From NCBI RefSeq assembly GCF_030463565.1, contig NC_134648.1, forward strand, positions 48,546,346-48,610,345: DNA of 64,000 nt, read 5' to 3'. The position numbers and the translations under genes were made by a program. The DNA is from Pelecanus crispus (taxonomy: Eukaryota; Chordata; Aves; Pelecaniformes; Pelecanidae). Each line of letters begins with the position of its first letter. Position 1 is the first letter of the stretch. The notes beneath the pieces are model-generated. The model was not told the DNA's origin and searched no databases. It saw nothing but the letters and a program-made list of their open reading frames with translations. Below, piece after piece: positions 1,767 to 64,000 of the stretch.

Positions 1767-3330
1767 TCATAGAATCATAGAATCGTCTAGGTTGGAAAAG
1801 ACCTTTAAGATCATCCAGTCCAACCATTAACCTACACTACCAAGCCCACCTAAACCAATCAAGGGTAGACTAGACTAAACCATATCCCGAAGTGCCACAT
1901 CTACCCATTTTTTGAACACTTCCAGGGATGGTGACTCCACCACCTCTCTGGGCAGCCTGTTCCAATGCTTGACCACACTTTCCGTAAAGAAATTTTTCCT
2001 AATTTCCAGCCTAAACCTCCCCTGGCGCAGCTTGAGCCCATTTCCTCTCGTCCTATCGCTAGCTACTTGGGAGAAGAGACCAACACCCACCTCACTACTA
2101 CCTCCTTTCAGGTAGTTGTAGAGAGCGATAAGGTCTCCCCTCAGCCTCCTCTTCTCCAGGCTAAACAACGCCACTTCCCTCAGCCGCTCCTCATAAGACT
2201 TGTTCTCCAGACCCTTCACCAGCCTTGTGCCCGTCTCTGAACACGCTCCAGCACCTCAATGTCTTTCTTGTATTGAGGGGCCCAAAACTGGACACAGTAT
2301 TCCAAGTGCGGCCTCACCAGCGCCGAGTACAGGGGCACAATCACCTCCCTGCTCCTGCTGGCCACAGCATTCCTGATACAAGCCAGGATGCTGTTGGCCT
2401 TCTTGGCCACCTGGGCACACTGCTGGCTCATGTTCAGCCGGCTGTTGACCAACATCCCCAAGTCCTTTTCCACCAGGCAGCTTTCCAGCCACTCCTCCCC
2501 AAGCCTGTAGCGTTGCATGGGGTTGTTGTGACCCAAGTGCAGGACCCGGCACTTGGACTTGTTAAACCTCATACAGTTGGCCACGGCCCATCGATCCAGC
2601 CTGTCCAGGTCCCTCTGCAGGGCCATCCTACCCTCGAGCAGATCGACACTCCCACCCAATTTGGTGTCATCTGCAAACTTACTGAGGGCACACTCGATCC
2701 CCTCATCCAGATCATTGATAAAGATATTGAACAAGACTGGCCCTAAAACAGAGCCCTGGGGAACACCGCTCGTGACCGGCTGCCAACTGGACTTAACACC
2801 ATTTACCACAACTCTCTGGGCTCGGCCACCCAACCAGTTCTTTACCCAGCGAAGAGTATGCCTGTCCAAGCCGTGAGCTGCCAGCTTCCCGAGGAGGATA
2901 TTATGCGAGACGGTGTCAAAAGCTTTGCTAAAGTCCAGGTAGATGACATCCACAGCCTTTCCATCATCTACCAGGCGGGTCACCAGGTCATAGAAGGAGA
3001 TCAGGTTGGTCAAGCAGGACCTGCCTTTCGTGAACCCATGCTGGCTGGGTCTGATCCCCTGGTTGACCTGTACTTGCCTGTGGAGTTCGCTCAAGATGAA
3101 CCTCTCCATAATCTTCCCCGGCACCGAGGTCAGGCTGACAGGCCTGTAGTTCCCCGGGTCCTCCTTCCGGCCCTTCTTGTAGATGGGCGTCACATTGGCA
3201 AGCCTCCAGTCATCAGGGACCTCCCCTGTTAACCAGGACTGCTGATAGATGATGGAGAGTGGCTTGGCGAGCTCCTCCGCCAGCTTCCTTATCTTTCCAC
3301 CAGAGAAACTTTTCAGACTTCTCACTATAC
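1767..3330 (-). mobile_element. CR1 LINE, 5'-truncated, with nearly open reverse transcriptase
   Basis: The element reads on the minus strand and ends at 1767 in the CR1 octamer tail (two ATTCTATG-type units). The coding part 3325-2216 keeps reverse-transcriptase motifs in order: [29 protein letters not shown] and FADDTKLG. A one-base deletion near 2216-2225 breaks the frame; the thumb/C-terminal part continues at 2219-1875 and stops just before the 3' UTR. The endonuclease domain and 5' end are missing. The long frames on the plus strand here are antisense. An element with few lesions suggests a fairly recent insertion. Confidence 0.93.
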
Positions 3331-3633
3331 AGGTTGATGATAAGCACTGTTTCTTCAGTCTCAGGTATGTCTCACTGGATCTTCAGGGAGCCTGGAGTTT
3401 ATCACAACTGCAAAAGACTGTAGCAGAAAGGACAAATACTTAAATAAGAAAGGCTGCTAGAAGACAGGAGGGGTTCAGCAAGGGTAGATTGCAAAAGAAA
3501 TAGGACAGCTAAAGAAATTAACACACTTCAAGCCAGGAGAAGGATGGAGAAAGGAGCAGCAAAGACACAGAGATGAGGGATGGCAGCTAATAGCAAATAT
3601 GAAAGTGTGCATGAAGAAGCACTTCTCACTTCT
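3331..3633. other. Spacer between two head-to-head CR1 copies
   Basis: About 300 bp with no recognised gene; it may hold unique DNA or badly decayed CR1. Confidence 0.4.
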
Positions 3634-10512: not shown

Positions 10513-11295
10513 TGATGGGCCAAGGCCAACTGTATGAGGTTTAACAAGACCAAGTACTGCACTTGGGTCACAACAACCCCATGCAACGCTACAGGCTTGG
10601 GGAAGAGTGGCTGGAAAGCTGCCTGGTGGAAAAGGACTTGGGGATGTTGGTCAACAGCCGGCTGAACATGAGCCAGCAGTATGCCCAGGTGGCCAAGAAG
10701 GCCAACAGCATCCTGGCTTGTATCAGAAATAGTGTGGCCAGCAGGAGCAGGGAAGTGATTGTCCCCCTGTACTTGGCACTGGTGAGGACACACCTCGAAT
10801 ACTGTGTGCAGTTTTGGGCCCCTCAACACAAGAAAGATATTAAGGTGCTGGAGTGTGTCCAGAGAAGGGCAAGGAAGCTGGTGAAGGGTCTGGAGCACAG
10901 GCCTTATGAGGAGTGGCTGAGGGAACTGGGGTTGTTTAGTCTGGAGAAGAGGAGGTTGAGGGGAGACCTTGTCGCCCTCTACAACTACCTGAAAGGAGGT
11001 TGTAGCAAGGTGGGTGTTGGTCTCTTCTTCCAAGTGGATAATGATAGGACAGGAGGAAATGGGCTCAAGCTGCGCCAGGGGAGGTTTAGATTGGATATTA
11101 GGAGAAATTTCTTTACGGAAAGGGTGGTCAAGTATTGGAACAGGCCATCCAGAGAGGTGGTGGAATCACCATCCCTGGAAGTGTTCAAAAAACGGGTAGA
11201 TGTGGCAAGCTGGGACATGGTTTAGTGGGCATGGTGGTGTTGGGTTGATTATTGGAATGATGATCTTAGAGGTCCTTTCCAATCTTAATGATTCC
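10513..11295 (+). mobile_element. CR1 LINE 3' fragment
   Basis: Starts within the reverse-transcriptase C-terminal part (NCMRFNK) and stays open from 10563 to 11225 ([16 protein letters not shown]-like to [17 protein letters not shown]). It is nearly identical in protein to the same segment of the 1767-3330 copy, so both are of one young subfamily. The 3' UTR ends at about 11295 without a clean octamer tail. Confidence 0.92.
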
Positions 11296-21735: not shown

Positions 21736-22011
21736 ATGCCGATGCCGGGGGGCGGCGGGGCCGCGGCCGCCGCCAGGCGCCCCGCGTCCGGCGAAGCGGC
21801 GGCGGCGGCGGCGGCGCCGCGGGACGAGGAGCAGCAGGAGGAGGAGGGCGAGGAGGATCTCCGCGACGGCGGCGTCCCCTTCTTCGTCAACCGCGGCGGG
21901 CTGCCCGTGGATGAGCCCACCTGGGAGCGGATGTGGCGGCATGTGGGCAGGATCCACCCCGAGGGGGAGCGGGTGGCGCAGAGGATCCGGGGCGCCGCCG
22001 ACCTGCCCAAG
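21736..22011 (+). CDS. VASH1: VASH1 coding exon 1
   Basis: Residues 1-92, ending DLPK before donor GTGAGA; phase 0. It lies inside the CpG island. The alanine runs (5 and 7 in a row) and the acidic EEQQEEEGEED stretch are encoded by GCG/GAG-rich sequence. Conserved vasohibin sequence starts at about residue 40. Confidence 0.96.
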
Positions 22012-25000: not shown

Positions 25001-28000
25001 TCCTGACAGTGTGGGATTGAGGGATGGAGACCTTATTCCTCTCCTCCTGCTTCTATTGCCCCATTAAAATGCTATAGACCTGATGCAAAAGAAACTGTAG
25101 CCCAGTCTGGGCTGCAGGCCCAGATCTCAGAGAGAGAGCACACTGTACTTTCATCAGTTTAATTACTTGAGGTGCAGGAGGCTCTTCTGCATTAACTAGT
25201 CCCCTGCTGAACTGGTTGCCATTATGCTGTCTCAGTGTTGCACAGTCCTTTGAGGAAAAGGGGATCTGGGGGTCTGTACTAGTAAAGGGAGGAGTAACTA
25301 CCTGGAATCATTGGTCTGTGCTGTCAACATGCACTTAATACCCCTGTCTCCACTCAAAAAGCATGGAAGTCCCCATACCGAAGAAATGAAACAAAGTTAA
25401 ATAGTCAGCCTGTCCTGGTTGTTAACCTCTTTCATTGTTTCTGCCGGGAAATTATTTCCTATGACTCAGTGAGTCAGCTCACAGCATCCAAACTGAGTCA
25501 GCTCATGTGGTTCCAGAGACGGCTCCATCCCTGTGCTGCTCTCTGGAGCCTTCCCTGCTCCTGCTGCGGCTGAACAAACCCAGATTCACATCTGCTCCTG
25601 CCATTCCTGTGCCGCCTCCTGCAAGTGAGCCAGCCGGTGCCTCTGCTTGCTCCAAGCAGGGTATGCAAATGAGGCACTGGAGATGGCAGTTGGCACCTCT
25701 AAGAGGTGCTAGGAAAATGGGTACCAGTGGCCAAATGGTGCTACTTAGTTTTCCAAAAAAAAAAAAGAAAAGAAAGATCAAAACACAGGAGAGAAAATGG
25801 ATAGAGACTGAGTTTAGCTCAGTGTTTACTTGCTGATGGTGTTTGGAGCTAGAGTGAAAAACACTCACAGATTACAGTTTCCAGAGGCAGCGACAGCCCA
25901 CCTCTCAAGGTTAAGCAGTCTCTGGCCCCTGCTGTGCGGGCACAAGCAGAGTGTGACCATGTGGCAAACCGGGACAGGGAACTGATCTGACTGAAAACTA
26001 CCCATGCTTGCTGGCTCAGCTTTCAGCTGGTTCGGGTGCCTGACCTGGTTCACCAGTCACTTGTGCCAACCCAGGGCAGCAGAAGGAGGTACAGAAATGA
26101 GTGGCCACAGAAATACATGTGGAGGGTGATGAGCAGCTAAGCAGTGCTGCTGGCTACAAAACCATGGCCTGCAGAGACAGTTGTGCTCAGTGGAGTGGAA
26201 GGCCCAAGGGAAGATCTGGTTCTGACTCACTGTTTCTTAGCGGGGGATAGCCCAGCTCTGGGGGAAGTCTGAGGAGGAACTAAAATGCTAAAAAACAAAC
26301 TGCTGTGAAAAGCTGCAGTCTGGTATAAGAGGGGTGTGTGCAAGGCATGAGCTATCCTTCAGAGGGAAAAGGCTGGGCTGTTTCTCCAAGCCTGTCAGTC
26401 ACACCAAATTTGTGTCTTCTCCATCATATTTGTCGTGTGGACAGGACCCTTCTCAGACACATTTTCTCAGCTGCTGACAAGGCTGCAGTTATCCCCTGTG
26501 GAGCAAATGGTGAGGAAAATCTGACTGGATCCGTAAGGCCAAGGCCTCAGAATGGGACGGCAGTCCAAACGGTGCTTTCAGCAGTCATTCTCTAACCACG
26601 TAATTCAAAACAATGGATATTGCAGGGGGGGAGTCATGATGTTGTCAAGCCTGTGTCCTAGTCAGTGCCAACTCACCTGAGATGCCAGGAGGCAGGGAGG
26701 GACCTTTACACCCTTACTTGCAGGACTGTTCCATGCTCCGGTGGCTTTGGGGAAACTCATTCCCCGTTTTTGCTTCTGTCTCCCCCCTTCCCCTATTTTT
26801 GTTTTGTGCCTTCCAGTTTGCATACTCAAATGAGGCCAAGCTCTCTCAGGTGATAGCTTTCCTGTCTTGCATCTTGCCTTGTCAGTTAATTTTATGTAAT
26901 TCTTCCAATGTAACGTTGCCTAAATGCAGGACCCTTTCACACAGTTTCTCTTGCAGGTCTGTGGTGGTGCTTCATTCTGAACCCCTTCCCAGTTATCAGT
27001 GTGGGAACAGAGGAATGTTCTTGGTGTGGTCACTTCGGGCAGCAAAAAGGGGCTGGTTTCAGAAAAACATGCTCTCTGCAGCTATGTGCCACTGAGTTCA
27101 GCAAGAAGTTGGAGAGGTTTGGAAGCAGTGATTTACGTTCTGCTCCCCATTTCAGATTCCCATACCAAGTGTGCCTGCATTCCAGCCATCCACCCCCATC
27201 CCTGAGCGCCTAGAAGCTGTACAGCGCTACATCAGGGAGCTTCAGTATCCTTTACTGTTACCTTAGTCACTGGTGCGATAACCCAGGAAGAGGGAGCAAG
27301 GGGAATTTCTTTTCCTGTGAAGAACAGAAAAGCTCATTCTGTTGTAGCTGGAGGGGAACTGAAACTTGCTCCCTGAAAACAGGAAGCTGGACTTGGGATG
27401 ATAGTCTGTTTTGCTGCTGTTTCTTTTCTGCCCAAGTTACCTTTGAATCCTGTTCACTCCTGCAACAAATGCACATATTGTCAAGGGCCTTTCCCCACTA
27501 CCCACCCTTCTAGGTCAGTGGCTTTACAGTGCCATTTCATTATAAACAAGCATATCTGACAGACGGACTCGGACTACAGACTGTGTCACCTCACTGTTCA
27601 GGCATGGGTGGGCTGTGCTGGTGAGAAAATGGCCTCTCAGGTCATCCTACTTGAACACTCTTCTCTGTAGCTGTCTAAAGGACAGTCAGCCACCCTGCTT
27701 TTGTGCAGCTGTGGTATCCTGCCCCTTTATGTGCAGAGCTGCCTGTGTGACTGTGTCCTGGGAATGAGGTTTCTCCATCCCTGTTGTGCTGGACAGCAGG
27801 TATGTGCCATGCAAGCATAGTCTAATCTCACTGATGAAACACAGAACTAGTTCTGGCTTCAGCCCTAAAACAAGGTAAGAAGGCAGACCTTTTGGCATCT
27901 CTTACCCATCTAAGGTGGTTGTGCTCTGGATTGGGTCCCAGTCAGTCTCAGAATAAGGCACCATGATTGTTTCAGTGCTCTGTGTGTTCTGTGCAGACCA

Positions 28001-31000
28001 GAGCAGGCAGAGATCTGTCAAACTTTGTTCTGCCCTGGTAACTGGAAAGCTGCGCAGTGCATGTGCTGTCAGCATGGACCTTTGGGAAATGGAGTGTGTG
28101 GGGCGGAGAAAGAATTGACAAGAAGGAAATACAGTGGAAGTAAGGAGGGACTATAAATGGGAGAAACGCAGGAGATAGGGGTGGGGACTCTCTTGCATTG
28201 CTGTTATATTTGTGGGATCATGACTTTGCTGTGAGAACAGTAAGTAACATGAAAGTTCTTCAGACAGATTTTCTTCAAACTCTACTTTCCAAACTGCCAA
28301 GCCCTTAACTTCTTGCCTCCAGGTACAATCACACTGGGACACAATTCTTTGAGATTAAGAAGAGCAGACCTCTGACTGGGTAAGTGCTGGCAGCCCCTAC
28401 AGCATTTAATCCTTGCTTTAAGATGTTGGGGCCTTGCTATACCCACTGCTTTTTCTTCCACCCCCTGGCCAGGTGGCACTCAGGGCTTTCAGTACTGCTG
28501 CTCCATCCTGCTTCAGGTGACTTCATTGTCTGTTGCCTGGGGCACGGCTGGGCAGAGCTGTGTCTGGCCCCTCTCAAGGACAAGAGTAGGTTTTGTTGTC
28601 ATGAATCAAAATCCAGTAAAATGACGTAAATGTATTTCAAAGATATGCAGATTCTGCCTGCTTCTAATTGGAATGTAACTATATGAACTTCTGATGGATT
28701 CTGAAATTAGGTCCTGCCCTAAACAAGTTTCGTAAAAGCCACGGATCTTTACAGGTCTAACTTCATAGCTCCTGTGAGTGCCTTTGCAGAATCTAGGCTC
28801 ACTAAGCTTTTGGCATCTCATACTTTGAAGGAGAAGGGGATTCTCCTGAATGCAGATATTGGGAAGAGCTGTGCCCCATAAGTTCCTGGAGATAAGCACC
28901 TCATGTTCATTGACTCTCTTGGATAGCATATTGAGAGTCTCCCAAGACTGGCTTCTTACTATTGGTCTAGTCCATAGTCTTATGTGACCCCAAATGTCTT
29001 CTCTTGTAATCAGTGCAATGTCTTCTCCACAGTATTTGTTGAATGGAGAGTAGGGTTGATGCCAGAGAAGAGGGCTTCACTGTCCTTGAACCTTGCGTGG
29101 CAAATATTGCTGGCTGTTGGTCCTTTGAGGCTTCCGCTTGTGGTCACATTGGTGTCCATCCAGAACAAGCCAAGTGCTGTGGTATCCCTGAGAACAGAAG
29201 TTGGCCTAGTAGGCAGCTTTGCTGTAACGCACTGAAGGGAGTTCCTTGCAAGCAGCGACAGCATGTGGTAGAGACCTGGTTTGGATTTAATATCTTCCTA
29301 AAGAAGGTATTTTCTTCTGTTCCCTGTCCTCAGTGGGTCACCTTCTCTCCTGGAAACCTACCTTACATATATAGTGCAAAAGGGCTGAACTGGCTGTACT
29401 TGCATAGCACAAGCCCTCTAACTGTCCTCATCTTTCCCTTTCCCACTCTGCAGGCTGATGGACCTGGCCAAAGAAATGACCAAAGAGGCCCTGCCAATAA
29501 AATGCCTGGAAGCTGTGATCCTGGGAATGTATCCTTTCCTCTTGGAATTGTGCATGTCTGCCCATCCTTTCTCCTCTGCTCTTATGACGGTTTGACACTG
29601 CTGATAATATTGTCACCAAGCCCCACATCCCTCTGTTTTCCTTCCCCAGTTCTCCCAAAAAAACCCACCAATAAAATCCAAATCCAAGCAATTCTCTGAA
29701 ATATCAGAACTAGTTCTTTGGAGTTGCTTCTCCTTCCCCAAGAAGGGTGGTACAGCTCTGGACAACTCTACAAGCGAGTAAAAGGTAAAGGAAGGATCTA
29801 AGGAATATCTAAAGAGGGGCAAAAATATTAGCTAGAGTTGGGTCAGGAATTCTTTTGTGGATAAAATTGTTCCTTTACTGCAAAGTTGCCTGCATGTGTT
29901 CTACATTAAAACAAGTTAGGGATCCTCCCTAACCTCTAATTATGGTGTATGTCACTTTACTATTATGTCTAACACTACCTGCCAGCTTAGGCAATACCTT
30001 TATTAATTCTAGACATGTGTCAACTTCAAGTACACATCTTTCCTAGCTATCTTCCAGGCTATCTATGTCACTCGGGCTATAGATTCTTGACGCACACTGG
30101 CAAAGCCACCTGCAGGGGCAGAGATGGCAAATGGATGGTTCAGAAGGGTGGTTTTATGAGTATTTTGTCCTGAAGGTTCCTCGGTTTGTGTGTGAAATAG
30201 TAGCTAGTAAAACAGATTAAAACAAACTGAGGAACAATGCTACAGCATTACAGTTTGGGAGCTATGGAATACAGTACGCTTGAGGTGTTAGCATTGCAAC
30301 TTCTGCATCACAAAACTGCACCAAAATTAACTCCCCTTTGTTGACTGTCTTGTTGAAGAGGCCAAGTCTGGTTTCCCCATGACCCAGATGAAAGCAGGGC
30401 AGCTTGCAATGAGCTGGACTCTTGATCTGGAGAACAAATCCTGCTTATGTGATGCCTGAATCCGTGGTGAGTCTGCTGAGCAGGCTGGGAAGGTTTGGAG
30501 CAGGAAAGAGGTATCTTGCCAAGAAAATGGTATCACTGGTTGTTTCCTGAATAGTGGCTGCTGTCAGTTACCTCACCAACAACATGACCACGCTGGACCG
30601 TTTCCCCATCAGCTTCAAAACCCACTTCTCAGGGAACTACTTCCGACACATTGTGCTGGGGGTGAACTTTGGAGGCCGCTATGGGGCACTGGGCATCAGC
30701 CGACGCGAGGAGCTCATGTACAAAGCACCCGTCTTCCGCACACTGAGCGAACTCATCTTTGACTTCGAGGAGGCATATCGCCGCTGCTGGCACACTCTCA
30801 AAAAGGTGAAGCTGGGCCACTGTGTGTCCCATGACCCACACAGCGTGGAGCAGATTGAGTGGAAGCATTCCATCCTGGATCTAGACAAGCTAACCCGGGA
30901 AGACTTCCGTAAAGAGCTTGAGAGACACGCCCGTGATATGAGGCTGAAGGTAAGGAACAAGGATGGAGTAGTTCACTGCTGCATCCGCTGTCTTGCCTGG

Positions 31001-32132
31001 ATGATGGTGTGCTGGGGGAATGAAGTGGCAGGAGTGGCAGTGAAGAGGCTCTCCTAGATGGTACTGGAGTAGAGGGTGAATTGGAGTCTGGGGGCTCTTT
31101 TCCTTTGTATACAGGCCGATCCCCTAATGGACGCTCATGCAGTACTGCAGCTGCGATTAGCTTGGACTGTACAACAGTCCTTGGAGCCATAGCTGTCACT
31201 GTGGCTTGTTTTTTCTGGCTTTTGCATTTTTGATGCGCTTGCCTTGCCTTTTCGTCTTTTATTCCCATATAATTAATCATTGTTAGGCTTTGTCTTTTCT
31301 GGTTACCACTTGTATTGGTTTTCTGCTCATGTTGCTCTTCAATTTTTCTGGCAGATTGGCAAAGGAACTGGGCCTCCCTCTCCCACCAAGGACAGAAAGA
31401 AAGATGTCTCCTCCCCACAAAGAGGTCAGGCCAGCCCCCATCGGCGCAACAGCCGTGGGGACCGACGGTGAGTGGGCTGCTGGGCAGGAGACCTAGCTAG
31501 AGCATCTCTTTTACTCACAGACTCCACCTTGCTGTCTGGTTTTGGATCCTTCTGATGTCTCACTGGGGTTCTTTGTAACAGGGGATACTTCTCTGACCTG
31601 CAGTAGCATTCTTCCCTAGTCTGTGCCTTTGTGAGTTTATCAGTGCTTGAGGAGTGGGGGGACAGCTGGTTTTTTTTGTTTTGGCAAGGGAGGAGGAAAG
31701 CAGCTCAAATAGACAGTGATCTTGATAGCTGATATTTAACCTTACGCAGGGGTCTGAGCTCTGGTGTTTCACAGACCTGTGCCCCAAAGAGATCCCAAAA
31801 ATTACACTGCTGTCAGTGAGATAGTTTTCCTGAAACTGATCTGGGGTACCAGAGTGGACTTCCTACTTTTCCTAACCTGCATGCTCTTCTGTGGAGATTG
31901 CTGGGAGAGTTACTGGAGGTTGCAGAATAACCCTGCCCTCAGTAGTGTAGGATAAGTCTGAAGCTTTCCTGTACCTTCTCCTGTGCTGCCATCTCTATGT
32001 GCAGAATCTCCTGACTGAAAAAACAGTTTCTGAATAGTTCTTACCCTCTTTGCTCACAGGCCATCTGGTGAGAAGAAGCCTGCCGATTCCAAAGCTATGC
32101 CAGACCTCAATGGGTACCAGATCCGGGTGTGA
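21736..32132 (+). CDS. VASH1: Vasohibin-1, tubulin tyrosine carboxypeptidase (7 coding exons)
   Basis: Joined coding exons are 21736-22011, 27156-27244, 28323-28379, 29454-29528, 30568-30949, 31355-31467 and 32060-32132. They give 1065 nt, 354 aa plus TGA, with every splice phase consistent; human VASH1 is 365 aa. Family knowledge: with its small partner SVBP, vasohibin removes the C-terminal Tyr of alpha-tubulin in the cytosol; it is also a secreted angiogenesis inhibitor. The transglutaminase-like Cys-His-Ser triad is visible as Cys158 (context IKCLEA), His193 (YFRHIVLG) and Ser210 (ALGISRRE), matching human 169/204/221. The N terminus is Gly/Ala/Glu-rich and poorly conserved; conservation with human starts at EEDLRDGG. 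The C-terminal tail from residue 294 is basic and Ser/Pro-rich and ends in DLNGYQIRV, as in human. ATG 21736 is the first in-frame start; the next ATG at 21742 aligns better with human Met1. Introns 2 and 4 have U12-type donors. Confidence 0.97.
22012..27155 (+). other. VASH1: VASH1 intron 1 (5144 nt)
   Basis: Bounded by GTGAGA and TTTCAG. It contains the rest of the CpG island, a 17-base T run (23488-23504), an octamer ATGCAAAT at 25663-25670 and the AP-1/MAF cluster at 25462-25505. No alternative coding exon is supported. Confidence 0.8.
25462..25505 (+). promoter_or_regulatory. AP-1/MAF site cluster in VASH1 intron 1
   Basis: Three TRE-type sites lie within 44 bp: TGACTCA at 25462, TGAGTCA at 25470 and TGAGTCA at 25494. 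The last two sit in an exactly repeated 12-mer, TGAGTCAGCTCA. The extended TGAGTCAGC half resembles a MARE bound by MAF/NRF2 heterodimers. Enhancer function for VASH1 is inference. Confidence 0.5.
27156..27244 (+). CDS. VASH1: VASH1 coding exon 2
   Basis: Residues 93-121 plus two bases of Gln122. It begins IPIPSVPAFQ after acceptor TTTCAG and encodes ERLEAVQRYIREL. It ends CA before a U12-like donor GTATCCTTT. The first intron is 5144 nt. Confidence 0.95.
27245..28322 (+). other. VASH1: VASH1 intron 2, U12-type candidate
   Basis: The donor GTATCCTTTA matches the minor-spliceosome 5' consensus (RTATCCTTT). CCCTTAAC at 28302-28309 matches the U12 branch consensus TTCCTTAAC with its adenosine about 15 nt before exon 3, inside the usual 10-20 nt range. 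There is little polypyrimidine tract between them. Confidence 0.85.
28323..28379 (+). CDS. VASH1: VASH1 coding exon 3
   Basis: Completes Gln122 and encodes YNHTGTQFFEIKKSRPLT up to the split Gly141; donor GTAAGT. The acceptor CCTCCAG is preceded by a U12-like branch site, CCCTTAAC. Confidence 0.95.
29454..29528 (+). CDS. VASH1: VASH1 coding exon 4 (catalytic Cys)
   Basis: Encodes LMDLAKEMTKEALPIKCLEA onwards and carries the catalytic Cys158. It ends in the middle of Ile166 (AT) at a second U12-like donor, GTATCCTTT. Confidence 0.95.
29529..30567 (+). other. VASH1: VASH1 intron 4, U12-type candidate
   Basis: The donor GTATCCTTTC fits the U12 5' consensus. The branch candidate TTTCCTGAAT (30543-30552) has two differences from consensus; its adenosine is about 17 nt before exon 5. 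An AG at 30553-30554, too close to the branch, is skipped. Intron retention would stop translation at TGA 29593-29595. Confidence 0.78.
30568..30949 (+). CDS. VASH1: VASH1 coding exon 5 (catalytic His and Ser)
   Basis: Residues 166-293, the largest exon. It holds catalytic His193 and Ser210 and the conserved SHDPHSVEQIEWKHS block. The acceptor is CTGTCAG, chosen because only this AG keeps the frame as Ile-Tyr-Leu-Thr; donor GTAAGG, phase 0. Confidence 0.96.
31355..31467 (+). CDS. VASH1: VASH1 coding exon 6
   Basis: Residues 294-330 plus two bases of Arg331. Encodes IGKGTGPPSPTKDRKKDVSS and the following basic tail. Acceptor CTGGCAG, donor GTGAGT. Confidence 0.95.
32060..32132 (+). CDS. VASH1: VASH1 coding exon 7 with stop
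   Basis: Residues 331-354, ending KAMPDLNGYQIRV and TGA at 32130-32132. The last residues are the same as in human VASH1. Confidence 0.95.
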
Positions 32133-37731: not shown

Positions 37732-40700
37732 GGACAGTCAGCTGCAAGATTCAGTGCATTTCCCCAGTAAGGGGGATCCAACTTTATTCAGGCTATCCTC
37801 TTTCAGGCATAACATACCCCTTCTCTCTAGGGAAATGAGTAACAGCTGGGACCAGGGCCAGGATGTAGGCAAGCCCACAGCATGTGGAGGAAAGGAATAA
37901 ACATCCCCTACATAACCCGTTACTCCAGAGAGGAATGGCACGTGCAATAGTCCCTCTTAGGTAAGTTAATTATATGAACAACAAATGCCCTAAGGGGAAG
38001 TAATTGCACAGCACCTAGTAGATGTTATGAGGACACAAGGGAAGAAAGTAGCCACTTCATAAGCCTACATGGCCTGTGCTCAAGCCCAGGAGTTGACAAT
38101 AGACTTCAGCAGCAGTCAAAGGCTTCTTGCTCCCCTATTAAATACTTAAAGATTAATAATATTAGCCAAAAAAGACTAAAATGCTGTGACTTCTATAAAC
38201 CTCTACTTCAGATGCTTGCTTGAAAATACCCTCTGCCCTATGTCTTACAGATTCTGCTAAAAATCAGGTAACTCCTGAACACCCTATAGATGTAGAGATC
38301 AGGGTGATTGCTAGACAATGAAGTGAGAATGGCAAAACAGTGACTTGACCACAGCTGAGATTAAAAATAAGACTTTCTGCTCCCTCTTAGATCAGGCTTT
38401 CCCCCTGCTACCCATAGTTCCCGCAGTTCTAGGTTTTTAAGTCAGTTAGATATGACACTATTTGGACCTTAGTGAAAAACCTTTATTGTGGAAAGGATAT
38501 ACAACTCAGCAAAGCAGTAATTAAAAAAATAAATTAAGGAAAAAAAAAAAAGTCAGCTGCTATGCTGAGGAGCCCAGACTGCAAAACTTAAGGCTCTCAC
38601 ATGCCTAAAAGCATATAGAAATTCATTCATGAGAGAGTGAGCACCATTCATGCAGAGCCTGCAGGATTACAGAAGGCAAAGGCATATGACATGCTGTGGA
38701 TAGCAGGCCGTTACAGAATTAAGTTAACTCAGCTGAGTTGGCTTTCTTGGATTATATTTTTATTTTGGCAAAGAGTGACTGCCATCGTATCTCCAACCTC
38801 ACTCTGGGGGAGGAAGGGAGGAGAGCAATAGCTTTAGAATAACTACTGCATTCATCTACCCCCCCAGTTCAGGAGCGACTCCTGAAAGCGGCCAATAACT
38901 GAATAAACTTAAAACTGCTGTAGAAGGCTTTCCATCCAGAAAGAAAAGACTAAAAAACTAAATAACACTACTAAGGCTTGAAGTCTTTTTTGTGTATAAC
39001 AGGAAAGACTGCATGGAACAAATGCATCTTTTGTTGTAACACATGTCAGCGTCTGGTCTAGTCCTTCTCCCACTTGCCACCTCAGCACCTTGGAAGCTGC
39101 TGTGTTTGTCTAACCAAAGTTAGGAAAAATTTTCCAGCTCTACTATACAGCATTCCTATTCCCTTAGAGTGCAAGAATGTGCAGTCTAGATCTGAAATAA
39201 AATAAATAAATTTTAAAATAAATAAAAGGAAAAAGAGCTTCAAGACTAGAATGACATTCTCAATGGAAGCTGGAGGACAACTTGCCTTGACAGGAGAAGC
39301 CAAACTTGTACAGCTGACAAAAGAAGGAGCTTGAGGCATGCCAGCTGTTAAATCAGTCATCTTGGTTATCATTATACCAGGTGAGTTCTCTACTGAAATT
39401 CAGTATCATACTTTGAAACAGGATGCAGTACATTCAATGGCAGTGATCATGCGGCTTGCGCATTTCAGTGTGACGGCGCTATGGAAAGCACTGCAGGCCA
39501 GGCAGCTACAGTCTGGTAAGGAGCAGGTTACAGCCAATTAACTTGCACAATCCAATTAACTTGCACAACAGGAAGCCTACTGAAAGAAGATGGTATCCCA
39601 CTAAGGCTTGTGTGCTCCTCCTTTGGATGAAACGCAAAAGGCTTCATCTGCATTTGGACAAACCATGGATATGTCTGCAAATTCCTAACAGTACATCCAA
39701 TAAACGCTCATTAGTGAGGTAGTGGCAATGGGAGGAGAAATTGCACTGCAGCAACACCCTGCTTTGCAGACTGCCAACACCACTCTCAGTCATTAGGAGC
39801 AGGACACATACCTTGATCTGCTCTTAAGACAGATTCTCTCCAAGATGCGGAACTGTTCTTAGACCATCTAAGAGACTCCTCAGAGAACAGGAGCTAAGGT
39901 CAAGTACATTTCAGAGTTCTCCTGTGCTTCACAAAGCAGGTGGCATATAGGTCACTAATGATAAATCTTAAACTTTTTTTTGTTGTATGTAACAAGAGTT
40001 ATTCCCATCTAAGTGTTGGTTTCAGAGCTCCCACCCCTCCCACTTAACTCTTCAGGGGTGAGGGAACCCACTCTCTTATGGCTTGACGCTATTTAAATGT
40101 TGAGTTTCTAATAAGACTCATCCCAAAGAATTCCACCCATAGCTCTTAACCGAAGAAATACAGCTGCAGAAAAAAATAAACATCAGTAACTCAGAAAGAT
40201 AACTGGATATGGCAGTTGTGGGAAAACAGCTGCTGGAGAGATACCTCGTAAGGAAAAAGCATGGAGAAAGAAGCCCTCAAGCAGCAGCCAAGTTTCATTT
40301 ATTAAGGAAAGGAAAGAAACTAGAGCAATTATATTGTTTACCACTCCTCACATCCCATGTAATTAGGAAAATTGATTATAAAGGGCATCCTCCTGAAGCA
40401 ATGAACTTAAAACTCTGAGAAAGTGAAGGAAGTCCAACTTCTATCTAAATAGCATAACTAAATACAGCTTAGCAGCGGTGGTGCAATCTAAGCTGTTGTC
40501 TAGCCAAGATACTTTGTCAAATACGTGTTTGCCTCTACAGCTGCATGTTCCTGCAGCTTAGGAGACTGATAACAGGGTCTGTACACACACTGCCAGTGGT
40601 CTCTGGCATCCCTTCCCCTAAGTACCTGTCTCCCTGAGCTCTACATCACTACTAACATGATGTAGATGATCCTACCTCTACGATAACTTCCCTTTCTGAG

Positions 40701-47300: not shown

Positions 47301-50300
47301 CCGCTCCCACAAACACCTGCAGCTGAAAACTGTGGCTGCTGAACATACTTTACAACTGCACAAAAGCATAAGTCTGGGAATATGGAAGAGATATGTAGAG
47401 CAATGGTTACTGGTAGGGGAACATTCAGCTCCTAACTAGAGAAAGAAAATGGCAGAAATTGGGCTACAGCAATAGACTCCAGAAAAATTAAATTTAATTC
47501 ATATACCAAGGAAATGGATAGAAGAGAATCTTTGCCAAGTGCCTCATGCAACACATGCCCAAGCTACTCACAGAGACAGCAAGGCCCACAAACTGTCCAT
47601 CCTCAGCAAACTCATGTTCTCAGTGCACACTGGAGCTCACCTAGTTTCTTTGGCTGGCACAGGGTGACATATTGGCAGTTGTCCGTTATACCCAGTGAGC
47701 TTGGCCACAGTGGGGCCAGCAGTTTCCGTGAATAAAACTGCTGGGAAAAGTCTTCCTGACCAGACACCTACAAGGAGGCCAGAAACATCAGCAACACAGA
47801 GAAGAACTTTTGCAAGCTATAGACAATGTACGTATATACACTCGCCAAGAGCAAGACAGAAGAATGCCCTCACAGAAAGGCATGAACTAAGCTATTCAGA
47901 ATATGGTGCAGATATAATAAACCTTCAGCTGTGGGGGACAGATACAATTAGCTAAAAGTCACCTGACAAGATTCTTTGCAGGCACCTGTTACTGAACTGA
48001 TGATTTAGCTTGAAAGCCAATGATGTATTTGATCATGGATACACAGTAACAGGTAATCACAAGAGACTCTAGCATAGGTGCCCATTTCAAACTGCTTTCA
48101 GATCAAACATCAACATAAAATTTCAGTAAGTCTTGGTGGAGTTGTACTCCCCTACACTTTCAGTCACCCAGACACAAAAAGTCCCCTAGCAAGGGAGAAC
48201 CAGCACCTGAAATTCAGTGGGCTATTATCACTGGTCTGCCTCAAGGGAAACTGAAAGAGCAGTGGTGGAAACAACATGGACACATTTGTCCACTTCTTTC
48301 CCCAGCAATGCTGGAGGCATTGGGGAAGGCTGCTGAATAACTGAACTCAATATTCAGACTATTTCCTCACAAGAGAAAGAATGCAGCCATGCATTCCTCT
48401 AGCAGCATGCAACAAAGAGCTACCCAATCCCAGTTCTGGCTTGCACCTACCTTCCATGCTGGCATCCCATGGTAAGAAAGTTCACCATTCCGGATGAATT
48501 TGTAGAGTGGAGAATCAGGTACAGAGTTCAGGTCTCCACACAAGATGACAGGATAGTAGCTGCCTTCAGTAGTTTTTGCAATCTTGTCGATCTCTGCTAG
48601 GAGCAAGGCCATCTGGGCCAGTTTGATATCTCCCCGCCGGGGATTGAACAACACATGAGTGTTGGCTACACACAAAGGACTGACTGCCTTCAGATCTAGG
48701 CCCTCCGGGAGCAGAGGCTGTAGCAGCAGCACCAAGCCCACGTTATCCCTATTGAGGATGTCCAGACCAGGCCGGAAGTATTCTATGGGGCTGAGGGTGA
48801 TCAGCTGGAACCTGCTGTGCTTATAGCACACTGCACAGCCATCTGTCTTCGTCCCAGTTCTCCGTTTATAAAAGCATGCAAAGCCTGAAAAGAAAGCACC
48901 TATTAAAAGGTTTATCCAGTCACTACTTCAGGTTCCCCCCATCAGCTGGGGAGTTCAGCAAGTCTGTGTAGCAGAAGAGGTTCCTACTACATGTGGGTAC
49001 AGCGTTATACCCAATTCTGTTCCAATAATCACAGTTTATCATTTATCATTGAGGGTATTTTCTCTCTCCTTGTCCTTCTAGGACCCTCTCAGTTTTGTTA
49101 TTCTGATCTGTCAACTCTCAGAAAGATGAATTACAAAAGAAAGGGTAAAGGTCTAAGCAGACAGTTCAGAAGTAGGGCCAGCAGCCCCCCGACAAGCAAG
49201 AAGAGCTCTCTCAAGATCGAGTGCTTTGAAGACATTAAGCAGGAAGCACTGCTTGGCCAGTCCCATGAGCTGGAGGTACAGACACACAAAAGCAGGACGT
49301 ACCCATCTCCTTGAACGTCGGTTCCAGCTGCTCCCAGTAATGGTTCTCTTGCACCTCCTGGAGACACAGAACCTGGAAGGAAGGCAGAGACCTCACTAGC
49401 TCCACCAGTATTTGCTAGTTACCCTGTTTTGGGGAAGGAAGAAAGTGGAAAAGTGCACTCACATACCAACCCTGCAACCAGAAAGGTCATCCCTGCAACT
49501 CTGTCCTGTACAGAGAGCAATAACTTTCCGGGTCACATTAGCTTATCATTCAGTTTTCCAGTGATGAGGCAGAAGATCCTTCATCATGCAAAGAGGACTC
49601 AAGGAATGGAGAAAGTCATGAAGTCCTCTTCTATACAGGCTTCCCCTCCTGTGCTGCCTTATAAACCTGGTCCTATGCTCCCCAAACACACATTATCTCT
49701 TCTTCCTCTGCTTCGGCTGTTTAAAGAAGTTAAGCCCTGCTATCAAAGTATGACTAGTTTCTACAGCAACACAATCAAAGCAAGATAGACACCAAAAAAC
49801 CAAATGCACAAAGCCTCAAACACTCTCAAAGGAATCAGGGTTCAGTTACCAAGCAGGTACTATCTTCCTAGGACTTCCCCCCAATCTTTTTTTTTTTTTA
49901 ATGCTGTTAGATCAAACAAGGAATTCAAATTCTAGTGACACTGATGTGGGAAGGTCTCAGTCATACTCACATCAGGATCCCAGTGCTGGATCTCCTGCAA
50001 AAGGTTTGGAAGGCGGTAGTTCCAGTTCAGGATGTCTGGACGACAGTGTAGATAGAGATCAAGGCCCTGCTCCACCAGATCCTGGGCAAGGATGTTGTAA
50101 GACATGACTCGAAATTCAAAGACAGGAGTGTTTTTTGAGACCTGCTCTAGCACACTGGGCTGGACAGAAAGATCTTCCCAGTCTCTCCATAAAATCTCTA
50201 TATGCAAGAGACAAAAAGCCAAGTTACAGCCATGCTGGATACCCTGCTGATACTTTTGTTCCCCTGGGACCCAGAAAATAGCCGTTCTCATTCTCTAAGC

Positions 50301-53141
50301 TAAGGTGGTCTAGCCTCTGAGCAAACCCTCGCCCACTCTGTTTTTCAGGTGTTCTTTTTGGGTGCCTTTGGGTAGTTCTCAATGGGGATGGTGTAACAGA
50401 AGACCAGAGTCAACCATACTGAAACACTCAACCAGCTTTTGGGTGCTTTTTATATTAAAAAGCCAGCACTTGGGAACAGTTCCTGGGACATGAGCATATA
50501 TTGACGTTCAGACCAGAGGGTCTAATAGCACAGATACTACCAGCTGTGACCAGCCCTCCCTCAGCAAAAACTCACTTTATAGTTTGCACTATCCTGTCTA
50601 GCAGATCCTGTCAATTCTGCATGGACAGATACAATCGATGTCTTACTGACAGCAAGCCCATACAGAATAACTTGACCACATTCACTACAAATGCCCAAAC
50701 CGAACATCAGATTGAGAGCTGTTACTACTGACCATGGTAGGGTACCTCTGTTGGGAGAGGACAAAATTGCACCATATCCTGAATGGGCCAGGCTGGCGGC
50801 TCTGTTGGCACTGTCTCTGCATCACGCGCTAAACTCCAGGCCAGCACAGCTGGGTCTTCATTCTGCACTTCAACATCGATAGTGGCACAGCCAGCTATCT
50901 GGTGATCCGTCTGTGGCACCACAGCTGCCCAAGGGGCACTGCCTGCTACAGCCACCGTTTCCTCTGCTGGTAGTTTTGCCAGTTCAGTCACTGCATGATC
51001 TTGCGGTTCTGAAGAAGCCAAGGTGTGTAGCTCTGTCAGCTGCTGACCAGCACACTGGGTGACCTCTGGAGCCGAATTCAGGTCGCTGAGGCTAGTCATC
51101 AATAACTCTGAACCTTCTAACCAGTCACTAGTGAGCGTAACTGATACTTTCCCCACTGCTGGAACACTCTCCCTGGCTGGCAAATTCCCTGCTCCTTCCT
51201 CCAGCCACTGCTGGAGAAGGGCTTCTTGCTCTTCTGGGACCGACCTTCCTCTGGTCGCTGCAAAGACGCCTTCTATCTGGGTGGACGTGCTCTTCGCCAA
51301 AAGCACATTCTTTCGACAGGTAAAGAAAGCATCTGCCATTTAAAAACAAACAAAACCAACATAATACAGATGGAAATCCTTTCCCACTCTTTTCTTTTTC
51401 CTATGCTTTTGCTGTAACTCTGTGCAATACAACCATTCAGTACAGCAACCCAAACAAATCACTTAGCTGAAAAAAACCATTTACAGTCTGAATAACTTAA
51501 TCGGCCTCTTCCTGAACACTAGGCCACAGTCCAATTTTAGTTATGTTAGTCAAAGTCACTGAAACTGTACAGGATGGCAGTGGCTTTACCAACTCTAGGG
51601 AATGTAATTCTAACTAATGCAGCGCCACAGCCAGTCAGCCAAGCTAAAAGGCCTCGTGGAAACTATCAGCTCTCTGCAACACATGTAAAGGCACAGTCTG
51701 CAGAAGTTAGCTGATGGGGTGCATGGGCTAAGAAGTCAAGCTCTTGTAGATGACCACTCGGAGCGAGTTTCTTCCCAGGGATTGAGTAAGAAAGTAGTGC
51801 TCAGCTAAGAGGATCAAACATATCACAAGAACGTGTTGTAGAAGAAAAACTGTTCTGTTATTAAGAGATGAAAAATAAAGACACAGAGGGACCAACGTGC
51901 AGTTAAAAGCCTTATCAGAGAGAATATATGCACAGAAGTCCTAGTAAGAATTACAGATCACCTGATGACTGACATCTGTCGTAAAAAATTTTAAAAACCC
52001 TGCTGTTAATGTAACACTTGAATATACTAATATTGGTGGGGTAAAGCAGAAAAAGATAGGGACTCTTTTCACTTGTTTCTATATAAGAGATACGGCATTT
52101 AAGTTTTGCTATGAATTCTGCACAGACGCTAGTCCCTACTGTTGACTAGCAATTTCTGTTGTGTACAAATCACTTTTTCTCTCTCTACTGTACCCCTGTT
52201 ACAGTGAGTCAGCCAGAGCAGTAACATACAGGAGTCAGCAACATCCGTGCATGCGTTAACTGCATCTTTCATGTCAAAGCTTTCTGTATGTGTCAGAAAT
52301 GGAGCTTTAAGAGCCATAGTCCTCTCTGTAGTTTTGTAATTAAGTTCATGAACGTCAGAAACACCAAAGCACCAAGGTAATATTTTTCCACATGACTAGC
52401 CAGGCACAGCTGTTACAAGAGCCTGTTACTACAGGATAGGAGCTGAATTTGAGAGAAGTCAGCTAGCTGCTCGCTATGACCACAGCACGCCAGGGGCTGC
52501 TACAGGCCTGGGGACAGGTTCAGGCAGGAGGGTGGGCAGTCACCAGGGACTGTGAAGTAGCAGCAAGATCTGGTAAACTGAGTGAAATACGGATGCACGC
52601 AAAGCAAGAGTCCATCCATGAGTGACCCGCAGGTCCTTGGGGAGTCACAGACCTCAGAGCAGCCCATCTCCAAAGGTCTTCCCAAACCCGCAGCGCAGGT
52701 CCGGGGCAGGAGGCTCGGGCCTCCACGCAGACCGCAATCTGCCGCTGCAGCACAACAGTCGGCAACCTTTTCCTCCGAAACCCTGCCCGCCGCGCTGCGC
52801 CGCGGGTGAGCAGCCCCGGCGCGGCACAAGCCCCCACGCCACCTCGGGCAGCAGCCCCAGGCCCCCACCTGCCCGCCTCCCCGGCTGCCCTGAGCGAAGG
52901 ACTCGGGGAGCTCCGCGGCAGCCGGGTCGGCCCTGGCTCCCAGCCGCCGAGGCCTCTCCGGCCGCACCCCCCTCAGGCCGGGCCGGGGGGAGGCGAGGGG
53001 CACCCGCACCCCGCACCTCCGAGCCCCCGCCGCCGGCTCCCCTGGCGCCCGCCGCCGCCCGCCCGGGGCCGGGTTACCTCGGAGGGCCCGGAGCAGCCGC
53101 GCCGCCGGCAGCAGCACGTAGCAGAGCACGGTGCCGATCAT
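44199..53141 (-). CDS. ANGEL1: Protein angel homolog 1 (CCR4-type EEP family, 10 coding exons)
   Basis: Minus-strand exons in transcript order are 53141-53078, 51332-50733, 50197-49971, 49372-49303, 48884-48451, 47767-47641, 46757-46647, 45878-45809, 45386-45223 and 44368-44199. The total is 2037 nt, 678 aa plus TAG, with all phases consistent; human is about 670 aa. The N terminus MIGTVLCYVLLPAARLLRAL is hydrophobic, fitting reported ER/Golgi association. Residues about 22-222 are acidic and weakly conserved. The EEP domain starts near VMSYNILAQDL. Predicted catalytic residues are Glu303 (LQEV), Asp438 and Asn440 (GDLN), Asp607 (VDYIF) and His661 (SSDH). YSRDFLL at 512-518 fits the eIF4E-binding pattern Y-x4-L-hydrophobic reported for ANGEL1. 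The paralogue ANGEL2 is a 2',3'-cyclic phosphatase; the same activity here is inferred from family. Confidence 0.97.
45223..45386 (-). CDS. ANGEL1: ANGEL1 coding exon 9
   Basis: Encodes SSGIIQHGLNLTSVYSHF, LPQRGRPEVTTMPMGLG and ATVDYIFYSAEPVKNGN. Acceptor GTGCAG, donor GTGAGT. Confidence 0.95.
45809..45878 (-). CDS. ANGEL1: ANGEL1 coding exon 8
   Basis: Encodes DRPAHWPKPAAIMKDPDPQ and PFVPR, 24 residues aligning without gaps to human ERPAGW...PAFSR. Acceptor CCTTTGCAG, donor GTAATT. An overlapping longer open frame downstream was rejected in favour of this one. Confidence 0.93.
46647..46757 (-). CDS. ANGEL1: ANGEL1 coding exon 7 (eIF4E-binding motif)
   Basis: Encodes GRLKYSRDFLLQFHFCDV to TDAKP. 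The YSRDFLL segment corresponds to human YGRDFLL. Acceptor CTGCAG, donor GTATTA. Confidence 0.95.
47641..47767 (-). CDS. ANGEL1: ANGEL1 coding exon 6
   Basis: Encodes VSGQEDFSQQFYSRKLL then APLWPSSLGITDNCQYV to PKKL. Acceptor TTGTAG, donor GTGAGC, one base carried over. Confidence 0.95.
48451..48884 (-). CDS. ANGEL1: ANGEL1 coding exon 5 (catalytic Asp/Asn)
   Basis: Encodes GFACFYKRRTGTKTDGC to GMPAWK and includes LNRDNVGLVLLLQPL, VANTHVLFNPRRGD and CGDLNSVPDSPLY. Acceptor TTTTCAG region, donor GTAGGT, phase 0. Confidence 0.96.
49303..49372 (-). CDS. ANGEL1: ANGEL1 coding exon 4 (catalytic Glu)
   Basis: Encodes VLCLQEVQENHYWEQLEP and following residues to EM, carrying the predicted metal-binding Glu303. 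Too short for a long-ORF scan. Acceptor TTCCAG, donor GTACGT. Confidence 0.95.
49971..50197 (-). CDS. ANGEL1: ANGEL1 coding exon 3
   Basis: Encodes ILWRDWEDLSVQ through VMSYNILAQDLVEQG and PDILNWNYR to HWDPD; start of the EEP domain. Acceptor ATATAG, donor GTGAGT. Confidence 0.95.
50733..51332 (-). CDS. ANGEL1: ANGEL1 coding exon 2
   Basis: Encodes DAFFTCRKNVLLAKS then an acidic, low-conservation linker, ending EVPYH. The acceptor is ATGGCAG, whose ATG is in frame with the exon, so transcription starting in intron 1 could begin translation there. Donor GTCAGT. Confidence 0.93.

Positions 53142-59560: not shown

Positions 59561-64000
<4,440 letters not shown>

Follow-up and report, generated by a model that had tools for sequence, protein, structure and literature searches.

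Introns 2 and 4 of the gene VASH1 in Pelecanus crispus are very probably (about 0.88, judged from the sequence) both U12-type introns of the GT-AG subtype, both in phase 2 and lying either side of a U2-type intron 3. The gene was found on the forward strand of a 64,000-nucleotide (nt) stretch of contig NC_134648.1 (assembly GCF_030463565.1, positions 48,546,346 to 48,610,345), referred to here as the window, where seven joined exons encode a VASH1 protein of 354 residues. An earlier sequence-only reading of the window had put forward intron 2 as a minor-spliceosome intron; intron 4 was absent from it. The positions of all features are given in Table 1.

Splice sites of introns 2 and 4

Splice sites were scored with U12 and U2 matrices. 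The controls were the four other VASH1 introns and every GT and YAG site in the window; the introns of the neighbouring gene ANGEL1 (see below) were left out. The donor of intron 2 (TCA/GTATCCTTTA) matches the U12 word at 9/9 positions and the U2 word at 3/9, and scores 16.4 bits as U12 versus -2.6 bits as U2 (difference +19.0); it closely resembles GTATCCTTT and bears little resemblance to the U2 consensus. The same holds for the donor of intron 4, which scores 16.4 bits versus 0.6 (U12 word 9/9, U2 word 5/9). The donors of introns 1, 3, 5 and 6 give -12.4 to -21.7 bits as U12 and 8.7 to 11.2 bits as U2, and are assigned to the U2 type; their unweighted match to the U12 word is 2–4 of 9, compared with 9/9 in introns 2 and 4. 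Duplex energies with U1 are -2.3 (intron 2) and -1.3 (intron 4) versus -9.6 to -11.4 kcal/mol for the four U2 introns. When noise of 10–40% was applied to the donor matrices at four levels, no intron changed class: 2 and 4 scored as U12 and the remaining four as U2 in 1000/1000 draws at each level. The full match to the U12 GT-AG consensus claimed earlier for the donor of intron 2 is thereby confirmed, and the class proposed for it is supported, the difference between its scores remaining positive in every draw. A U2-like score above the U12 score had been named beforehand as the outcome that would overturn this proposal; under the approximate matrices used, the U12 score was the higher.

In intron 2, the candidate branch site (GCCCTTAAC) agrees with TTCCTTRAY at 7/9 positions, with a perfect CCTTAAC core, and its score is equalled or beaten upstream of 5/4968 YAG sites in the window, its own site counted. 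The branch adenosine had been placed about 15 nt before exon 3, which agrees with what was found (first A 15 nt, second A 14 nt from the last intron base); the published optimum distance for U12-type introns is 11–13 nt (PMC3584512). The longest pyrimidine run at this acceptor is 6, equal to that of the U2-type intron 1. The acceptor of intron 4 has pyrimidines at 11/20 positions, the lowest value of the six introns (U2 introns 15–18), and lacks a distinct polypyrimidine tract. From -90 to +200 around the intron 4 junction, no U2-like donor scores above 1.8. By these predictions intron 4 is U12-type by its donor and is not U2-like by its acceptor, and its branch site is weak. From what is known of this intron family, the two donors would be recognized by U11 and U6atac and the branch sites by U12.

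The coordinates first given for intron 2 (27245–28322; 1078 nt, phase 2) are exact. Its junction had been described as fixed by the protein, through a split glutamine codon. The position is right, but the protein alone is insufficient to set it: intron 2 and exon 3 both start with GTA, so that four placements yield the same mRNA, and GT-AG ends are obtained in 1/4. Unlike intron 2, intron 4 has a junction free of placement ambiguity. Exon 4 ends in ...CTG GGA AT, followed by GTATCCTTTC, exon 5 starts with T TAC CTC, and the rejoined reading ILG-I-YLTN is that of human VASH1.

Several observations weigh against the assignment of the two introns. The donor and branch-site matrices are approximations and not those distributed with SpliceRack or intronIC. 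The acceptor of intron 2 has 16/20 pyrimidines, inside the range of the U2 introns, and a middling U2-like donor, CTG/GTGCGA (6.0 bits), lies 28 nt within the intron at 27273 (+); it is a possible cryptic site should minor splicing fail. In the branch site of intron 4, one base differs from TTCCTTRAY: a G replaces a T that is strongly conserved in the consensus. The score of this site is matched at 155/4968 YAG sites, its own included, 46 of them at a distance of 9–17. Duplex energies of the branch sites with U12 and U2 segments failed to tell the introns apart and were dropped as evidence; with the U12 segment they were -6.9 in intron 2 and -6.4 in intron 4 versus -6.1 to -11.0 in the others. 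Relatives of VASH sought through the exon 5 protein in viral and genome contig collections gave 17 and 110 pattern matches, respectively, none of which was confirmed by tblastn.

For intron 4, the main alternative is that only intron 2 is U12-type and that intron 4 is either a hybrid, with a U12 donor followed by a U2 branch site and acceptor as in the JNK genes, or in the middle of conversion to the U2 type. Its branch site, at 8/9 and a score of 7.0 versus 11.0 in intron 2, would fit such a hybrid, as would the rough duplex of the intron end with a U2 segment, the strongest of the six (-11.6); hybrid introns of this kind are described for JNK (PMC3584512). However, an acceptor as poor in pyrimidines as this one would also be a poor U2 acceptor, the branch site lies at a U12-like distance of 16 nt and the donor match is complete. 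We consider the hybrid quite unlikely.

The placement of the two donors adds to their scores. They share first place among the 6760 GT sites in the window, and both are located at VASH1 exon ends. GTATCCTTT occurs in two copies on both strands of the window together (27245 and 29529), each at a VASH1 exon end, and the naive probability that both top GT sites would hit the six VASH1 donors is 6.6e-7. The word RTATCCTTT was found three times versus 1.07 expected, and at least three copies were reached in 10/100 shuffles; the word is therefore not rare by itself and its position carries the weight. U12-like donor words at 62406 (-), GTATCCTTC, and at 38500 (-), ATATCCTTT, had no recognized exon alongside, and an Rfam scan of the whole window at gathering scores gave no matches. 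That introns 2 and 4 are ordinary U2-type introns with coincidental donor words could draw on these shuffles, but is very improbable given that both perfect words stand exactly at VASH1 exon ends, that the U2 donor scores of the two are far below those of the other four introns, and that mouse Vash1 is listed in U12DB (via PMC2787017).

The end of exon 4 and the VASH1 isoforms

VASH1A is an active tubulin detyrosinase, and VASH1B is inactive in detyrosination and reported to be anti-angiogenic. According to the available text of PMC7708047, the two have their N-terminal 176 residues in common, VASH1B is produced by alternative polyadenylation, and VEZF1 promotes this step at a G-quadruplex located at the VASH1A/VASH1B junction. 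The same source describes VASH1B as without SVBP binding and as inactive for lack of H204 or S221. Human VASH1B has 204 residues. In the window, the last whole codon of exon 4 is G165, which corresponds to human G176. Since the shared 176 residues end at the end of exon 4, the point at which VASH1A and VASH1B part is here the predicted U12-type donor of intron 4.

Reading through into intron 4 adds 22 residues past the last whole exon 4 codon, compared with 28 in human VASH1B (204 minus 176). The in-frame stop and an AATAAA are each less than 150 nt from the donor of intron 4, and four C-tracts lie between them; the stop and the AATAAA were sought after the fact. With loops of up to 12 nt allowed, the C-tracts are one of 25 such motifs in the window, seven of which lie outside two GC-rich blocks, and the only one between 22192 and 32204. 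The match at residue 176 is the solid part of this picture; the stop and the poly(A) signal are only compatible with it. The window resembles the VEZF1/G-quadruplex system (PMC7708047) in that the fork at residue 176 falls at the end of exon 4, and differs from it in its tracts, which on the coding strand are rich in C and satisfy a relaxed quadruplex rule only.

We speculate that minor splicing of intron 4 is slow and in competition with polyadenylation inside it. Slow removal of a U12-type intron with a weak branch site would leave time for polymerase pausing and for use of the intronic poly(A) signal. Early polyadenylation would then give a short, VASH1B-like protein that ends just past exon 4, containing the catalytic Cys and lacking the His and Ser, and the activity of the minor spliceosome would tilt the balance of VASH1A against VASH1B. 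U12-type splicing is reported to be approximately 2- to 5-fold slower than U2-type splicing, and a rate-limiting role of U12-type introns, which the sequence-only reading had also invoked, has been proposed in the literature in general terms (PMC3584512).

Such a switch is a tentative proposal, which we would put at clearly less than even odds, and a number of points speak against it. At a density of 0.70 per kb per strand, AATAAA is expected in ∼ 10% of 150-nt stretches, and a further copy is located inside exon 4 at 29496. The words U12, minor and spliceosome do not occur in the available text of PMC7708047. A conserved G-quadruplex at the fork became less likely, as the C-tracts fail the usual rule of loops of 1–7 nt, and our confidence in the switch was lowered because the motif is not of the usual kind.

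There is about an even chance that both introns are U12-type and that the match at the fork has no regulatory meaning, VASH1B arising from polymerase pausing and poly(A) choice alone. VEZF1 and polymerase pausing are the explanation given in PMC7708047, with direct support from human cells, and an isoform made by intronic polyadenylation must diverge at some donor; with two of the six donors U12-type, the prior for a match is one in three. On the other side, slower U12-type splicing should favour premature polyadenylation (PMC3584512), although what is seen here is coincidence of position alone.

A different consequence of the paired introns would be the joining of the intron 2 donor to the intron 4 acceptor, two sites of the same predicted class; exons 3 and 4 would then be left out without a frameshift, yielding a dead isoform that lacks 44 residues, the catalytic Cys among them. 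Both introns are in phase 2, the exons measure 57 and 75 nt and no premature stop arises in the skipped frame. Two reported isoforms of VASH2, with 355 and 311 residues, also differ by 44, a match in number only, which we keep as a lead. We regard such skipping as unlikely; according to the available text of PMC3584512, exons next to U12-type introns are not skipped.

Host gene and other features of the window

The alignment with human VASH1 (6k81_A) covers residues 10–354 of the window protein (2e-201), and the Vasohibin domain PF14822 was identified in it by Pfam. Introns 1 to 6 have coding phases 0, 2, 2, 2, 0 and 2. C158, H193 and S210 align with C169, H204 and S221 of the human protein and form the Cys-His-Ser triad expected of a vasohibin; around exon 4, human chain numbering equals window numbering + 11. 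C169 is the catalytic Cys of human VASH1 (PMC7449697, PMC7708047). Exon counts for VASH1 differ between two reviews, 7 and 4 versus 8 and 5; the second pair may add one upstream exon.

Table 1. Positions of VASH1 features in the window (1 = first letter of the 64,000-nt stretch)
Feature	Position	Strand	Remarks
VASH1 coding exon 1, from ATG	21736..22011	+	Pfam Vasohibin PF14822 1.5e-14; PDB 6nvq_C
VASH1 exon 2	27156..27244	+	human VASH1 match IPIPSVP...IRELQ
VASH1 intron 2, predicted U12-type GT-AG, phase 2, 1078 nt	27245..28322	+	
Intron 2 predicted U12-type 5' splice site GTATCCTTT	27245..27253	+	9/9; joint first of 6760 GT sites
Intron 2 predicted U12-type branch site GCCCTTAAC, second A 14 nt from last intron base	28301..28309	+	score 11.0
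VASH1 exon 3, 57 nt, frame-neutral	28323..28379	+	
VASH1 intron 3, U2-type, flanked by two predicted U12-type introns	28380..29453	+	donor U2 8.7, U12 -12.4 bits
VASH1 exon 4, 75 nt, frame-neutral, catalytic Cys codon, last whole codon = human residue 176	29454..29528	+	
VASH1 intron 4, second predicted U12-type GT-AG intron, phase 2, 1039 nt	29529..30567	+	
Intron 4 predicted U12-type 5' splice site GTATCCTTT, at VASH1A/VASH1B fork by residue number	29529..29537	+	9/9
First in-frame stop on intron 4 read-through	29593..29595	+	187 residues before stop
Four C-tracts, weak template-strand G-quadruplex candidate	29621..29656	+	needs one 12-nt loop
AATAAA, possible poly(A) signal for short form	29670..29675	+	sole copy in introns 2–6
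Intron 4 candidate U12-type branch site TTCCTGAAT, 8/9, second A 16 nt from last intron base	30544..30552	+	score 7.0
VASH1 exon 5, catalytic His and Ser	30568..30949	+	Pfam Vasohibin 6.7e-57 for enclosing open reading frame 30551–31057; PDB
VASH1 exon 6	31355..31467	+	human VASH1 alignment
VASH1 exon 7, up to stop	32060..32132	+	human VASH1 alignment

Part of an ANGEL-family gene was found at 48367–51339 (-). Its segment 48367–48927 matches Exo_endo_phos in Pfam and, as best PDB match, ANGEL2 (6rvz_A); this gene, on the other strand from VASH1, is taken to be ANGEL1. The open reading frame 50725–51339 (-) has no Pfam match and was assigned to the ANGEL gene by position only. An open reading frame at 2216–3382 (-) encodes the reverse transcriptase of a long interspersed nuclear element (LINE; Pfam RVT_1). 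Another at 10545–11225 (+) is LINE-like; it has no Pfam match, but on visual inspection it is similar to the C-terminal portion of the former. We take both to be CR1, and hence a sign of a bird or reptile genome.

Relation to known U12-type introns and significance

A U12-type intron in mouse Vash1 is recorded in U12DB, as cited in a paper of 2009 (PMC2787017), which names Vash1 as its only gene in which a differentially expressed exon directly adjoins a U12-type intron in a mouse model of spinal muscular atrophy (SMA); the authors concluded that U12 genes are not preferentially affected. The mouse case thus shares with ours the gene and a U12-type intron, there beside an exon altered in disease. 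It differs in that the available text of PMC2787017 gives neither identity nor number of the intron, and U12DB is known to us through that paper. The U12 class of a VASH1 intron is therefore already known, and the finding on intron 2 is ordinary by itself because the intron of mouse Vash1 had been catalogued. The basis for regarding the class of introns 2 and 4 as conserved is this U12DB mention of an unnamed intron. IAOD includes Gallus gallus, and bird VASH1 introns are probably classified there.

Searches of the literature on VASH1 or VASH2 together with minor splicing, intron retention or intronic polyadenylation showed no proposal of splicing against polyadenylation for intron 4, although a passing mention is possible. 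The combinations of VASH1 with intronic polyadenylation and with minor intron gave no literature match.

Paired U12-type introns are shared with ∼ 50 human genes that have two, and with most mammalian SCN and CACN1 channel genes (PMC3584512, PMC2831892); the product of VASH1 differs from these channels in being a tubulin carboxypeptidase. Like VASH1, the JNK genes carry a U12-type donor where isoforms are chosen (PMC3584512). In JNK, the alternatives are mutually exclusive splice sites, whereas in VASH1 the choice, if real, would lie between splicing and reading into the intron.

Beyond the known class, the analysis points to two U12-type introns in VASH1, with one donor at the VASH1A/VASH1B fork. 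It is conceivable, if slightly more doubtful than the switch at intron 4 itself, that the choice between VASH1A and VASH1B is decided kinetically at a minor-spliceosome intron, through which minor-spliceosome activity would set tubulin detyrosination and angiogenic tone. If this is true, the state of the minor spliceosome, as affected for example by disease mutations in its proteins or by low SMN, would influence both vessel growth and the detyrosination of tubulin along a defined path.

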